NCBI RefSeq assembly: GCF_005377625.1
Contig: NZ_CP040098.1
Coordinates: 1,543,501-1,607,500 of the forward strand
Direction: 5' to 3'
DNA: 64,000 nucleotides
Origin: Desulfoglaeba alkanexedens ALDC
Lineage (GTDB): Bacteria; Desulfobacterota; Syntrophobacteria; Syntrophobacterales; DSM-9756
The notes below the pieces were generated by a model. It was not told where the DNA came from and made no database searches. It worked only from the letters and a program-made list of their open reading frames with translations. This document shows, one piece after another, positions 44,394-62,493 of the stretch. The translations under genes were made by a program, and so were the position numbers. How positions within the stretch are numbered: position 1 is the stretch's first letter; each line of letters begins with the position of its first letter.

Positions 44394-46112
44394 CTAAAAC
44401 AGGAAATACCTCTGGGTGAGCGGCAGCTCCAGGGCGTGCCCGCACGTCAGGATCTGCCCGTCCGCTTTGACGACGTACGTTTCTGGATCCACCTCTATTG
44501 CGGGCAGACAGTCGTTGTTTATCATGTCTTTCTTGCCGATCGCCCGGCAGTTGCTCACGAATGCCGCCTCTTTGGTCAACCCCAGGCGACGGTGGACACC
44601 GGCCTCGATGGCGGCCTTTGAAAGAAAGGTCAGGCATGTTGTGGCGGGCGCACGACCGAACGCGCCGAACATGGGTCGCATCATGAGCGGCTGAGGGGTG
44701 GGGATGGAGGCATTGGCGTCGCCCATCTGAGCATATGCGATAAAGCCGCCCTTTATGATCATCGCCGGTTTTACGCCGAAGAAGGCCGGTTCCCAAAGAA
44801 CGATATCGGCAAGCTTTCCCTTCTCGAGCGAGCCGACGTACCGGGATATCCCGTGGGTGACGGCAGGATTAATCGTGTACTTGGCCACGTACCTTTTGGC
44901 CCGGAGGTTATCATTGTCCGTCTCGTCACCCGGAAGTTTGCCCCTCTGCAGCTTCATTTTGTGCGCGGTCTGCCAGGTCCTGATAATCACTTCTCCGACC
45001 CGCCCCATGGCCTGCGAGTCGGAGGACATCATACTGAATGCCCCCATATCGTGAAGGATGTCCTCGGCCGCTATGGTTTCCGCCCGGATGCGTGAGTCGG
45101 CAAAGGCCACATCCTCCGGAATGCGGGGATCGAGGTGATGGCACACCATGAGCATGTCCAGGTGCTCGTCCATGGTATTGACCGTGAAAGGCATGGTGGG
45201 GTTGGTCGATGAGGGAAGGACATTCGCCTCCCCGCACGCCCTGATGATATCGGGCGCATGCCCGCCGCCTGCCCCTTCCGTATGGTACGTGTGAATGGTC
45301 CTTCCCTTGAATGCTGAAAGGGTCTCTTCCACGAAGCCTGCCTCGTTCAGGGTATCCGTGTGGATTGCAACCTGGACGTCATACTCCTCCGCAACGGAAA
45401 GGGCCGTATCGATAGCCGCCGGGGTAGAACCCCAGTCCTCATGCAGCTTGAGCCCGATGGCCCCTGCCTCGATCTGTTCGCGTAAGGGGTCGGCAGTGGA
45501 ACAGTTGCCCTTACCGAGAAAGCCGAAATTCAGGGGAAAGGCCTCGACGGATTCGAGCATGCGATGGATGTTCCATTCGCCGGGGCTGCACGTGGTCGCA
45601 TTTGTTCCGGTCGCCGGCCCCGTGCCCCCTCCGATTATGGTCGTAATCCCCGATTCGATGGCGGTTTCGATCTGCTGGGGGGAGATGAAGTGAATGTGCG
45701 TATCGATCCCTCCGGGGGTCGCAATAAGTCCTTCCCCGGCAATGACCTCGGTGGATGCACCGACGACCATCCCGGCGGTCACGCCATCCATGAGATCCGG
45801 GTTGCCTGCCTTGCCTATGCCCCATATCTTTCCGTCCCTGATGCCTATATCCGCCTTGACGATACCCCAGTGGTCCAGTATGGTCGCATTGGTGATGACC
45901 ACATCGAGAACTCCTTCCTTTCGGGTGGCGGTGGGCGATTGCCCCATGCCGTCGCGGATCACCTTGCCTCCGCCGAATTTCACCTCGTCGCCGTAGGCGG
46001 TAAGATCCTGTTCGATCTCTATGAAAAGCTCGGTATCGGCGAGACGAACCCTGTCCCCTGTGGTCGGGCCGAACATATCCGCATATTGTTTCCTGCCGAT
46101 TCGTATTCCCAC
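44394..46112 (-). CDS. ureC: Urease alpha subunit
   Basis: UreC is the catalytic subunit that hydrolyses urea to ammonia and carbamate. The dinickel site is intact: [14 protein letters not shown], the carbamylated lysine in [21 protein letters not shown], and the flap histidine in [21 protein letters not shown]. Start GTG at 46112 follows GGAGG by eight bases and gives 572 residues, family length. The ureB stop is one base upstream, indicating translational coupling. Confidence 0.97.
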
Positions 46113-58453: not shown

Positions 58454-59438
58454 CTAAAAATGTTGCACCAGTCGAAAATTCAGCCGGTAGCCCTCCGGGC
58501 GGTTTTCCGCCGCTGTTTCAAAATAGGTGTTCAAGAAGCAGTGCGTCTGCGGGCTCAAGTGAAACACGGCACCGGGGCCGATGGCGAAGACCTCTTCGCG
58601 GCTGTCGGAAAGGTCGTCTCCGTCTACTTGAGTGTCCGAAATCTGCTTGCTTCAGGTAGTAGCCGTTGATCCCCAGCCGCAGCCTCTTTTCCAGGACTTC
58701 GTAGGCGCTCGTGAAATTGACATGAATCGCCTGCCCGGTCTGGGTGTCGTCAGCGTCACCGAAGCCGCGGTTCGGGTCATGGTTTTCCGCATTCCACAGG
58801 TAGTGCAGCCGCCAGTAAGCCGTCCAGTTGGGGGTGAAGAAGACGGTGGCCGCCCAGTAGGGATTGAAGGAAAAGAAGTTGCTCCCGGGGTTGAGCTCCT
58901 TGTCGTCGTCGTACTTGCCGGTGGGGAAGATCATCTGCAGTTCGATCCGGTGCATGAAAACGGGCCCCTTCTTCCCCATGACGGGGTCCCACTGGAGGAA
59001 CGGACCGACCAGGAGGTCTCCGAAACCGCTCCCGTTGTCTTCCATGGGGATGGGAAGGCCGAGATCCAGGTCCAGGGACACGTAGGGGATGATGACGTCC
59101 AGCCCCCATTTGCCTCCGAAAAGGACCGCTTGGTTCGACTGGTAGATGAACTGGGTGAGGCTGACCCATGTATCGAGCTTTTCGTCGGCGGCAGAGGGCA
59201 GCAGAGCGTCACCGTCTTCGTCGGTGAATTTTTCCGACCGGTAATACTAAATGTACTGGGTAAAGTAGAATCCCGGACCCGCGGGCGGACCGCCGTCCAA
59301 GAAGCTCGTAAACCCCAGGTTCAGGGCCGGAAGGTGATAGGCCAGTACAGGACCGCCACCGAGCAGGGAAAGGGACAGGAGGCACGATGCTGCGCAAAGC
59401 AAGAAGCGGCGGTACCAGGGCAAGGCCAATCGATGCAT
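58454..59438 (-). pseudogene. Outer-membrane channel of the Phenol_MetA_deg type, broken by a stop and a 4-bp duplication
   Basis: ATG 59438 starts a signal peptide ([22 protein letters not shown]) followed by [20 protein letters not shown], then an in-frame TAG near 59,246. The frame continues with beta-barrel sequence ([20 protein letters not shown]). Near 58,650 an AAGC duplication shifts the frame, and the proper end ([20 protein letters not shown] ... LNFRLVQHF) follows in the new frame to a stop at 58,454. Intact relatives are predicted outer-membrane transporters for aromatic compounds. Confidence 0.75.
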
Positions 59439-59547: not shown

Positions 59548-59811
59548 TCATTCTTCGCCCGCTTGCAGTCTCTCCTTGGCCGCTTCGACCAGTTCCACCA
59601 GGCTCACGACCTTGTCCTTGGGAGGTCGGTTGAAGCAGCGGTCCCACTGCTCCGGAGAAAGCCTCTCGCGAAGGAGCCGCTCCACTGGAAGGCGAGCCTG
59701 CCAGCAGACGATGATTCTGGAACAGGGCAGATCGCCACCCTCCTGGAGGCAGTAGTCCAACGATACTTCACCTCCCAACTTGGGGCACCGGATCTTCAGC
59801 CGATCCTGCAT
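59548..59811 (-). CDS. Small Cys-containing conserved-looking protein
   Basis: The 87-residue protein starts MQDRLKIRCPKLGGEVSLDY and has four cysteines in RCPKLGG-x5-YC-x7-PCSRIIVCW, possibly metal-binding, followed by a helical C-terminus (SPEQWDRCFNRPPKDKVVSL). ATG at 59811 follows GAGGAG. I recognise no named family. It lies 144 bases downstream of trpB2 in the same direction and may share its transcript, so its level could follow tryptophan supply. Confidence 0.65.
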   Translation of the reverse strand: MQDRLKIRCPKLGGEVSLDYCLQEGGDLPCSRIIVCWQARLPVERLLRERLSPEQWDRCFNRPPKDKVVSLVELVEAAKERLQAGEE

Positions 59812-59955: not shown

Positions 59956-61317
59956 TCACGGCTTGGGGAGCCCTTCGAGGGTCTTGAGGGCCCGCTGGAT
60001 CTCTTCGTCCGGCAGTTCGTACGGTGTGAGCCGATTCGAAAGGAAGGCGTCGTAGGCCGCGAGGTCGATGATGCCGTGGCCGCTCCAGTTGAAAAGAATC
60101 ACCCTTTCCTTGCCCTCTTCTTTGGCCCGCTTGGCTTCCTGCACCACGGCGGCGATGACGTGGTTGGTTTCGGGGGCGGGAATGAATCCCTCGCTTCGAG
60201 CCCACTGAACCCCCGAAGAAAACGCTTCGATCTGGTCGAGGGCGCGGGCTTCCACGAGGCCCTCCTTCACCAGGTGACTTACGATGGGAGCCATGCCGTG
60301 GTAACGGAGTCCGCCGGCGTGAATGGGCAGCGGCAGGAAATCGTGGCCCAGGGTATACATCGGAAGCAACGGGGTGGTCATGGCCGTGTCCCCGAAATCG
60401 TAGGCGAAAGGCCCTTTGGTAAGGGTCGGACACGATGTGGGCTCGGCGGCCACGATACGAACTTCTTTGCCGTAAATTTTGTCACGGACGAAGGGGACGG
60501 CGATCCCGGCGAAATTGCTGCCGCCGCCCGCACATCCCATGACCACGTCGGGATACTCGCCGATCTTTTCCATCTGCTTGTGAGCTTCCAGGCCGATGAT
60601 GCTCTGGTGCAGGATCACGTAGTTGAGCACGCTGCCCAGCGAATAGCGCGCCTTTTCATCGCCCACCACATCTTCTATGGCTTCGCTGATGGCGATCCCA
60701 AGGCTTCCCGGCGAATCGGGGTTTTCGGCCAGGATTTTCCGCCCCGCCGCCGTCCGGTCGCTGGGGCTCGGAAGGCATTCCGCCCCCCACGCGGACATCA
60801 TGAGCCGCCGATAGGGCTTCTGTTCAAAACTCACCCGCACCATGAAGACCCGGCACTTCAAGCCGAACATCTGGCAGGCCATGCTGAGAGCGCTTCCCCA
60901 CTGGCCGGCGCCGGTTTCTGTCGAAAGTCTTTCAATGCCGAAGACTTTATTGTAATAAGCTTGAGCCACCGCCGTGTTGGGTTTGTGAGACCCCGGCGGA
61001 CTCACGCCTTCGTTTTTGTAATAGATGCGTACCGGGGCATCCAGAAGCTTTTCGAAGTTCCGGGCCCTATAGAGGGGCGTCGGGCGCCACAGAAGATACT
61101 TTTCCAGTATTTCCGATGGAATATCGATCCACCGTTCGGTGGACACTTCCTGTTCGATGAGGTTCATGGGAAAGACCGGCGCCAGATCCTGCGGGCGTAT
61201 GGGCTTTCCCGTTCCCGGATGAAGCGGCGGTTTCATGGGCGTGGGAAGATCCGCCTGGATGTTGTACCACTGCCTGGGTATCTCGCGGTCCTCCAGATTC
61301 ACCTTCACCTGATCCAT
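59956..61317 (-). CDS. trpB: Tryptophan synthase beta chain, TrpB2 type
   Basis: The 453-residue PLP enzyme makes tryptophan from indole and serine. The PLP lysine is in [17 protein letters not shown], and the phosphate-binding loop is [10 protein letters not shown]-terminal extension ([23 protein letters not shown]) and length mark the TrpB2 subgroup, which works without TrpA or salvages indole. AGGAGG precedes ATG at 61317. No other trp gene is nearby. The leader region upstream carries an attenuator. Confidence 0.93.
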
Positions 61318-61368: not shown

Positions 61369-61411
61369 AAAAAAAAGAGCCGTAGGGAACGCTTCACCTC
61401 GCCCACGGCTC
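61369..61411 (-). terminator. Attenuator terminator upstream of trpB2
   Basis: On the minus strand GAGCCGTGGG pairs with CCCTACGGCTC and runs into eight T residues. It ends about 50 bases before the trpB2 start, so it would stop transcription before the gene. The 5' arm (GAGCCGTGG) can alternatively pair with CCAC-AAGA-CTC at 61,434-61,444, giving an antiterminator. Confidence 0.85.
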
Positions 61412-61421
61412 TCGGCCCGAT

Positions 61422-61449
61422 CCTGTCGCGACGGAGTCTTGTGGACAGG
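61422..61449 (-). promoter_or_regulatory. Leader hairpin (CCTGTC/GACAGG) between trp leader and terminator
   Basis: CCTGTC and GACAGG form a 6-bp stem immediately after the leader-peptide stop. CAGGC within the Trp-codon region can also pair with GCCTG at the start of this hairpin. These mutually exclusive pairings are what a ribosome-controlled attenuator needs. Confidence 0.6.
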
Positions 61450-61450
61450 C

Positions 61451-61513
61451 TCACCACATCGCCTGCCACCACCAAAAAGACTCGATCGCGCAATTGCACA
61501 TCATTGGATCCAT
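61451..61513 (-). CDS. trpL: Tryptophan leader peptide (20 residues, WWW-x3-W)
   Basis: ATG at 61513 with GAGG upstream encodes 20 residues ending ESFWWWQAMW followed by TGA. Four Trp codons in seven positions are far above chance. The stop codon abuts the hairpin segments and terminator that precede trpB2. Ribosome stalling at the Trp codons when charged tRNA-Trp is scarce would favour the antiterminator and expression of trpB2. Confidence 0.85.
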   Translation of the reverse strand: MDPMMCNCAIESFWWWQAMW

Positions 61514-61541
61514 CCAACCTCAGGATATTTTTCACACTCTC

Positions 61542-61568
61542 CTAATACAGACGCAAAAGATCTGTCAA
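61542..61568 (-). promoter_or_regulatory. Candidate promoter of the trpL-trpB2 transcript
   Basis: On the minus strand a TTGACA -35 box (61,563-61,568) is followed after 15 bp by TATTAG (61,542-61,547). It lies about 30 bases before the leader start. The spacing is short for sigma-70, so confidence is moderate. Confidence 0.45.
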
Positions 61569-61679: not shown

Positions 61680-61951
61680 CAGATGGCCTTGAAGCAGCAA
61701 GCGCATCAGCTGCGCTTCCCCTAGTTCCCAAGCTCCAGCTTGGGAACGCCCTGCCCGGGAAGCTCCAGCTTCCCTCGTACTACAGCTGAAACGCGCTGTC
61801 TTTCTAGGGAGCTCGCCAGGATCTCGAAGTGGTTTTTCCCGTCGTTCCCAAGCTCTGGCTTGGGAACGGCCTCACCGAAGCTGGAGCTTCTGCACAGTTG
61901 TGTTCCCAAGCTGGAGCTTGGGAACAAGAAGCAAAAGATCTGCACCCATCG
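61680..61951. repeat. 270-bp repeat module with three palindromes
   Basis: Direct copy of the module at 1,471-1,742 with few differences. The palindromes are at 61,724-61,747, 61,844-61,867 and 61,902-61,925. Here it occurs without the GAACATY arrays. The remaining spacer 61,952-62,493 shows no confident gene, only a short plus-strand frame with a signal-like stretch (62,270-62,475). Confidence 0.9.
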
Positions 61952-62493
61952 CTCACATGCTCGGCATCACTCCCCGCCATCGACGGATATCGGATCGACT
62001 TCGAAAGCGGCGGTCTGGAGCGGTTTTAGGCGGAATCTGGATGGCAGACTCTCGACCACTTGATGCACACCGCCGAGAAGCGTAATCGCCATACGTTGGA
62101 GGCGTAAACCCTGCCGGACAAGTTCATGGCGCCTTGACAGGCAGAAACATCTTCGGGTATACATCGGACGCCACGAAGGCACCGGGAACCGCTTCCAAAC
62201 GATTTGGAAAGAGAGGCCACGAAGGTCGAAACCGCTATGGAGGATTCGGCGTGGGTGGCTTTTTTGTTTGGATGAACTCCATGCGTTATCAGCCGATTGG
62301 AGCGCCGACCTGGATGCGATGTTGTACCTGCTCCCTTCCGGCTGTTTTCGTGGTGTCCGTTTGGGCCTGTAGTATCGCCCGAGCCGAGGAGGTTCGGCGG
62401 GACACCTATGGAGACGGAACGGTGGATCGCTCCTGCAACCGCAAGTGCATCCGGCACAACCGACATGATCCCTGAGCAGAACGGAGGTATTCC

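Follow-up and report, generated by a model that had tools for sequence, protein, structure and literature searches.

The role of a stand-alone TrpB2 in organisms that also have a normal TrpA/TrpB1 pair is debated. A serine deaminase role has been proposed earlier for TrpB2 (discussed in PMC1854888), whereas the TrpB2o proteins tested elsewhere showed poor serine deaminase activity (PMC1854888), and an Escherichia coli trpA mutant grew better when provided with a TrpB2, thanks to cross-fed indole (PMC11535334). The regulatory mechanism considered below is a classical one, and there are published precedents both for an attenuator before trpB2A and for a conserved element before iorAB: a classical Trp attenuator has been predicted upstream of trpB2A in Corynebacterium diphtheriae (PMC1262725), and in Geobacter a conserved 5' element, labelled tryptophan, precedes iorAB-paaK (PMC2700814, Table 2). 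In the openly accessible literature, we found no previous description of an attenuator ahead of a stand-alone trpB2.

Here we analyze the region upstream of trpB2 in a 64,000-nucleotide stretch (hereinafter, the window, to which coordinates refer unless indicated otherwise) of the genome of Desulfoglaeba alkanexedens ALDC, which consists of one contig of 3.37 Mb. We consider it very likely that a ribosome-mediated transcription attenuator ties trpB2 expression to the level of charged tRNA-Trp. The gene (59956..61317, minus strand) encodes a tryptophan synthase beta-like PLP enzyme of 453 aa that exceeds the cut-offs of both NF009057 (736 bits, cut-off 366) and TIGR01415 (659.5 bits, cut-off 518.85), and the best solved relatives of this protein (6hul, 4qys, 6hte) are tryptophan synthase beta chains. 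In a preliminary description made from the letters of the DNA, trpB2 was regarded as a stand-alone gene, in agreement with the presence of a complete trpEGDCFBA operon ~0.7 Mb away (~G000:C1:2309938-2317282, compared to 1603459 for trpB2). By gene position, with trpB2 lying away from the trp operon and trpB1 inside it, it fits the TrpB2_o subtype (Merkl 2007, PMC1854888).

Two genes follow trpB2 on the same strand, and both may be co-transcribed with it. The first one (59548..59811), probably located on the trpB2 transcript, encodes an 87-aa Cys-containing protein for which searches of Pfam and NCBIfam gave zero matches. Relatives of this protein are encoded behind trpB2 in several genomes (cluster c2), and given this recurrent position, co-regulation with trpB2 is plausible. 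The second one (58457..59438) encodes a putative outer-membrane protein of the Phenol_MetA_deg family (PF13557). Its counterparts (cluster c3) lie behind trpB2 in no fewer than six relatives; in the window, the reading frame of the gene shifts near 58648, which indicates either a broken gene or a sequence error. Elsewhere in the window, positions 45662-45957 match the Rfam family 5_ureB_sRNA (RF02514) with 95.6 bits, which may merely mirror a conserved coding sequence.

Anatomy and folding of the trpB2 leader

On the minus strand upstream of trpB2, there is a 20-codon ORF (MDPMMCNCAIESFWWWQAMW*, 61451..61513, from the ATG at 61513 to the TGA at 61451) with a C-terminus that reads ...F-W-W-W-Q-A-M-W-stop, exactly as the preliminary description had it: three tandem Trp codons (W14-W16, 61474-61466) are followed by a fourth one that adjoins the stop codon (61456-61454). 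An AGG at 61520-61518 is a possible ribosome-binding site of this ORF. Segment 1 (GGTGGCAGGC, 61461..61470) overlaps Trp codons 15-16, and segment 2 (GCCTGTCCAC, 61441..61450), which begins directly 3' of the leader stop codon, can pair either with segment 1 or with segment 3 (GAGCCGTGGGCGAGGT, 61396..61411), where GTGGGCGAGG is its antiterminator partner. Segment 4 (CCCTACGGCTC, 61377..61387) is the 3' strand of a Rho-independent terminator that ends in a T8 tract (61369..61376) and, with this tract included, spans 61411-61369, ahead of the structural gene as is typical of Trp attenuators. The distance from the terminator to trpB2 is ~50 nt, and an AGGAGG box (61330-61325) is located between the two. 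This terminator was missed by a generic terminator scan because the loop limit of the scan is 8 nt.

Segments 1 and 2 pair as CAGGC/GCCTG, segments 2 and 3 through GTCCAC/GTGGGC together with CCT/AGG, and segments 3 and 4 as GAGCCGTGGG/CCCTACGGCTC followed by T8. The conserved antiterminator consists of GCCUGUCCAC with GUGGGCGAGG, and the GAGG of segment 3 is conserved despite its position in the terminator loop. Among the pairings proposed in the preliminary description, CAGGC/GCCTG, the terminator hairpin with eight T residues and the CCAC/GTGG core are retained, the CTC/GAG extension of this core is not conserved, and CCTGTC/GACAGG (61449-61444 with 61427-61422) falls in a column block that is variable among the relatives, without comparative support, and is discarded.

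The leader RNA folds better than 200 of 200 shuffled sequences (z -3.5). Alternative-structure folding, the check proposed in the preliminary description, yielded each of the competing helices under the matching mask: P(2:3) reaches 0.96 for a window transcript that ends at segment 3 and in which segment 1 is masked, and P(3:4) is 1.00 when segment 2 is masked instead. In the full-length RNA, 3:4 is favoured at equilibrium, so that the decision must fall during transcription, through kinetic, co-transcriptional folding, on which classical attenuators likewise depend. In one relative (L020), P(2:3) is only 0.03 in the stalled-state fold.

A candidate -35 box, TTGACA, is located upstream of the leader (61563..61568, minus strand), and TTGAC occurs no more than 170 nt upstream of the Trp codons in 28 of 30 trpB2 leaders (5.1 expected from shuffles), which places the predicted transcription start before the leader. 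The -10 box is uncertain: TATTAG (61547-61542, 15-nt spacing) was missed by a consensus promoter scan, which found nothing in this region. Further upstream of the promoter, TTCCCAAGCTNNAGCTTGGGAA-type palindromic repeats occur several times at 61730-61960.

Conservation of the leader among relatives

TrpB2 homologues were taken from related genomes and their leaders were compared. Elements consisting of a UGG run, GCAGGC/GCCUGC and GAGCCGUGGG/CCCAYGGCUC-type strands are present in 16 of the 30 closest homologues, and a short ORF with at least three Trp codons precedes trpB2 in 15 of the 30 (3.4 expected); about half of the nearest homologues have no such leader, often where the gene neighbourhood has changed. 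When a covariance model (the second of two that we used) was built from eight of the 16 leaders with these elements, none of which belongs to the family of the window, the window element was the top match in the genome (72.6 bits, E 4e-19 under a rough calibration), with the next-best match at 22.4 bits.

For the comparative analysis, 30 trpB2 leaders from nine families were aligned, including one (L269) in which the Trp run is degenerate. In all 30, the Trp frame contains an ATG or GTG 3-35 codons upstream of the run and a stop no more than 16 codons from it. In the two other frames, a start codon is present in 5 and 15 leaders, and a start with a near stop in 4 and 10, respectively; once a ribosome-binding-like motif is added, 23 leaders qualify in the Trp frame vs 1 and 4 in the others. 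Furthermore, the length change from WWW to WWWW keeps the frame (L004, L006, L276, L282). This conservation of the frame points to a leader that is translated, rather than just an RNA motif, i.e., a leader ORF with tandem Trp codons as in the Trp attenuator class.

The conserved, mutually exclusive 1:2, 2:3 and 3:4 pairings that define this class are also found, with covariation that is weak for 2:3. Pairing in helix 1:2 reaches 98.6% across the 30 leaders, and both-side changes affect two of its pairs (eight cells vs 2.2 in shuffles); for helix 3:4, the corresponding values are 92% and five pairs (23 cells vs 5.0). In both cases, the number of such cells exceeds that in 500 of 500 shuffles. 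Helix 2:3 is 90% paired in both alignments, compared to 32-53% when slid, and its covariation is weak because its strands serve other helices too. Failure of orthologous leaders to conserve the Trp codons or the hairpins had been named in the preliminary description as an observation that would speak against the attenuator; instead, Trp codons, frame and hairpins are kept in the 30 leaders from nine families.

Many relatives (L005, L007, L013, L015, L270-L282) have two hairpins in series, of which the first (3:4) often has no U-tract and the second has one. Pairing of segment 4 with segment 5 is feasible as well, so that the two hairpins might act as a relay switch. Of the 69 TrpB2 proteins placed in a tree, 31 rows are attenuated, and 27 of these fall within a single supported clade of 44 (99/95), across which losses are scattered; the four rows outside the main clade (families f44, f5 and f16) have unrelated leaders (WWWW, WCWC, WWCWWW). 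The presence of different Trp leaders in divergent clades suggests either that Trp control of trpB2 goes back to an old ancestor and its leader has since been rewritten, or that such control arose on more than one occasion.

Other genes with aromatic-codon leaders

Another covariance model, the first one, was used to search 56 genomes from the class and 395 from the phylum. The Trp-rich leaders that it identified lie upstream of trp operons (beginning with trpE, or with aroF ahead of trpE), iorA and trpB2. The trp operon of D. alkanexedens itself carries such an attenuator (L031:9480-9720), with a leader MNGVQSFQVCFWCWWWSRP... that includes ...FWCWWW... and is followed by two tandem terminators; thus, trpB2 stands alone yet shares the signal of the operon. 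Between this attenuator and trpE, there is a 77-codon ORF (L031:9729-9961) in which, as judged by eye, the N- and C-terminal ends of DAHP synthase are joined in frame and the catalytic middle is missing; relatives have a full DAHP synthase gene at this position.

The iorA gene, which encodes the alpha subunit of indolepyruvate ferredoxin oxidoreductase (TIGR03336, 659.9 bits vs a cut-off of 650.9), is preceded by Trp-codon attenuators, e.g., WWCWWW or WFWWW, in several genera (L094, L093, L096, L100, L102, L103, L108, L132). The iorA leader of D. alkanexedens (L139) is degenerate, with a single Trp codon and a terminator, and the claim for iorA therefore rests on the relatives.

In the same genome, the second model gave weak matches (22.4 and 21.4 bits) that correspond to the leaders of a DAHP synthase gene (aroF) and a phenylacetate-CoA ligase gene (paaK). 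The former (L263, G000:C1:327976-327856, minus strand) encodes a Tyr/Phe-rich peptide, VYFYFRWYY, before the DAHP synthase gene, which is followed by a tyrA-like gene. The latter (L264, G000:C1:949221-949094, minus strand) combines a Phe-rich peptide, FFGFFGGFLF, with a terminator before a PaaK-like gene (948981-947683), the product of which has TIGR02155 as its best family, with 641.1 bits, just below the cut-off of 646.3. Short ORFs with at least five Phe codons are present in 21 of 24 paaK loci, including this one (4.8 expected), which suggests that phenylacetate salvage might be controlled by Phe through the paaK leader. In other families of the phylum, Phe/Tyr-rich leaders (FYFWFYF, FYFYFYF, SYFYFW) with similar terminators (L239, L244, L250, L243, L247, L258) precede aminotransferase-like and chorismate synthase-like genes, both named by eye, and DAHP synthase genes. 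Matches upstream of livJ-like binding-protein genes and of certain Phenol_MetA_deg genes come with a comparable terminator but no Trp leader, and were rejected as false positives or degenerate copies.

The aromatic-codon leaders shared by these genes place trpB2 in an aromatic-amino-acid attenuation regulon. Whether this amounts to a salvage regulon under leader peptides that comprises trpB2 and iorAB (Trp codons) along with paaK (Phe codons), possibly with a serial-hairpin relay, we rate as an even chance. If so, TrpB2 would convert indole to Trp, IorAB would convert indoleacetyl-CoA to indolepyruvate and thence to Trp, and PaaK would activate phenylacetate to feed Phe synthesis. The leader codons mark iorAB and paaK as probable suppliers of Trp and Phe, respectively, possibly through a reductive aryl-acid route.

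Proposed mode of action, alternatives and relation to known attenuators

By analogy with classical attenuation, we propose that, when Trp is ample, a ribosome at the leader stop codon would cover segment 2, so that 3:4 would form and transcription would end at T8. When Trp is scarce, a ribosome stalled on W14-W16 would cover segment 1, and 2:3 would form as RNA polymerase advances, leaving no terminator, such that trpB2 would be transcribed, probably with the two genes behind it. Expression of TrpB2 is thus probably switched on at tryptophan shortage. TrpB2 would then make Trp, with free or salvaged indole as the most likely substrate, given that the genome has a complete trpEGDCFBA operon elsewhere, behind an attenuator of its own.

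The hairpins could instead serve only to terminate an upstream transcript constitutively, or the ORF could be fortuitous, with the Trp codons coinciding with a G/U-rich pairing strand; indeed, TGGTGGTGG occurs 243 times in the genome, and pairing with segment 2 requires a GGUGGCAGGC-like segment 1. We find this very improbable because the first UGG codon is conserved although it lies outside the counted helix 1:2, length changes preserve the frame, the Trp frame has a start and a near stop in every aligned leader and a ribosome-binding-like motif in 23 of them, and similar leaders precede trp operons and iorA. A chance or pure RNA-motif origin of the UGG repeats is contradicted by the frame test. 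Nor do we give more than minimal credence to direct sensing by a protein or tRNA (a TRAP-like, T-box or new Trp riboswitch leader) in place of a translating ribosome: the conserved RNA segments could be a protein site in principle, but the conservation of the frame implies that translation matters, and the sequence shows no array of GAG/UAG repeats. Furthermore, a gathering-score search of this part of the window against Rfam, including T-box (RF00230), gave zero matches, and a search at E up to 10 gave chance eukaryotic matches only; zero matches were obtained for the trpB2 leader with T-box and the other Rfam leaders, and with Trp_leader (RF00513), at gathering score or at E up to 10.

A different objection accepts the attenuator but not the product, namely, that TrpB2 is a serine deaminase or another beta-replacement enzyme wanted under Trp starvation. 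The earlier deaminase proposal (PMC1854888) and the presence of trpB1 and trpA in the genome are compatible with this scenario, which we nevertheless consider unlikely: regulation by Trp codons best fits Trp production, TrpB2o proteins are poor deaminases (PMC1854888), and the benefit to the E. coli trpA mutant came from cross-fed indole (PMC11535334). A conserved Trp-codon attenuator implies demand for the enzyme at low levels of charged tRNA-Trp and hence favours Trp production over serine deamination. We therefore regard indole salvage, with serine or phosphoserine as the co-substrate, as the most likely role of TrpB2, with reasonable although not high confidence. The attenuator thus bears on the debate on stand-alone TrpB2, in favour of indole salvage, and conservation of the leader lends weight to the view taken in the preliminary description that this is a tryptophan-regulated biosynthetic or salvage enzyme, a function deduced from the regulation.

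Among the known systems, the element resembles E. coli trpL (RF00513) in its short leader peptide with tandem Trp codons near the stop, mutually exclusive 1:2, 2:3 and 3:4 pairings and Rho-independent terminator, but controls a stand-alone trpB2 rather than a trp operon, and most of its relatives have two tandem hairpins. The trp operon attenuator of the same genome (L031:9480-9720) gives the same signal, with its ...FWCWWW... leader and GCCGUGGG-type terminators, but has a longer leader peptide, two tandem terminators and low sequence similarity to the trpB2 element, and was not reported by the trpB2-trained model in the genome search. The predicted C. diphtheriae attenuator (PMC1262725) also precedes a gene named trpB2, a likeness by gene name; there, in Actinobacteria, trpB2 accompanies trpA in a split trp pathway, whereas in the window trpB2 occurs without trpA, and the genome has an intact trp operon. 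The Geobacter element (PMC2700814) is likewise tryptophan-linked and precedes iorAB, a target that we found in relatives; it was described as a conserved sequence, in a text that mentions no leader peptide, and the Geobacter trpB2 was placed inside the trp operon (PMC2700814), in contrast to the trpB2 of the window, which is outside it.
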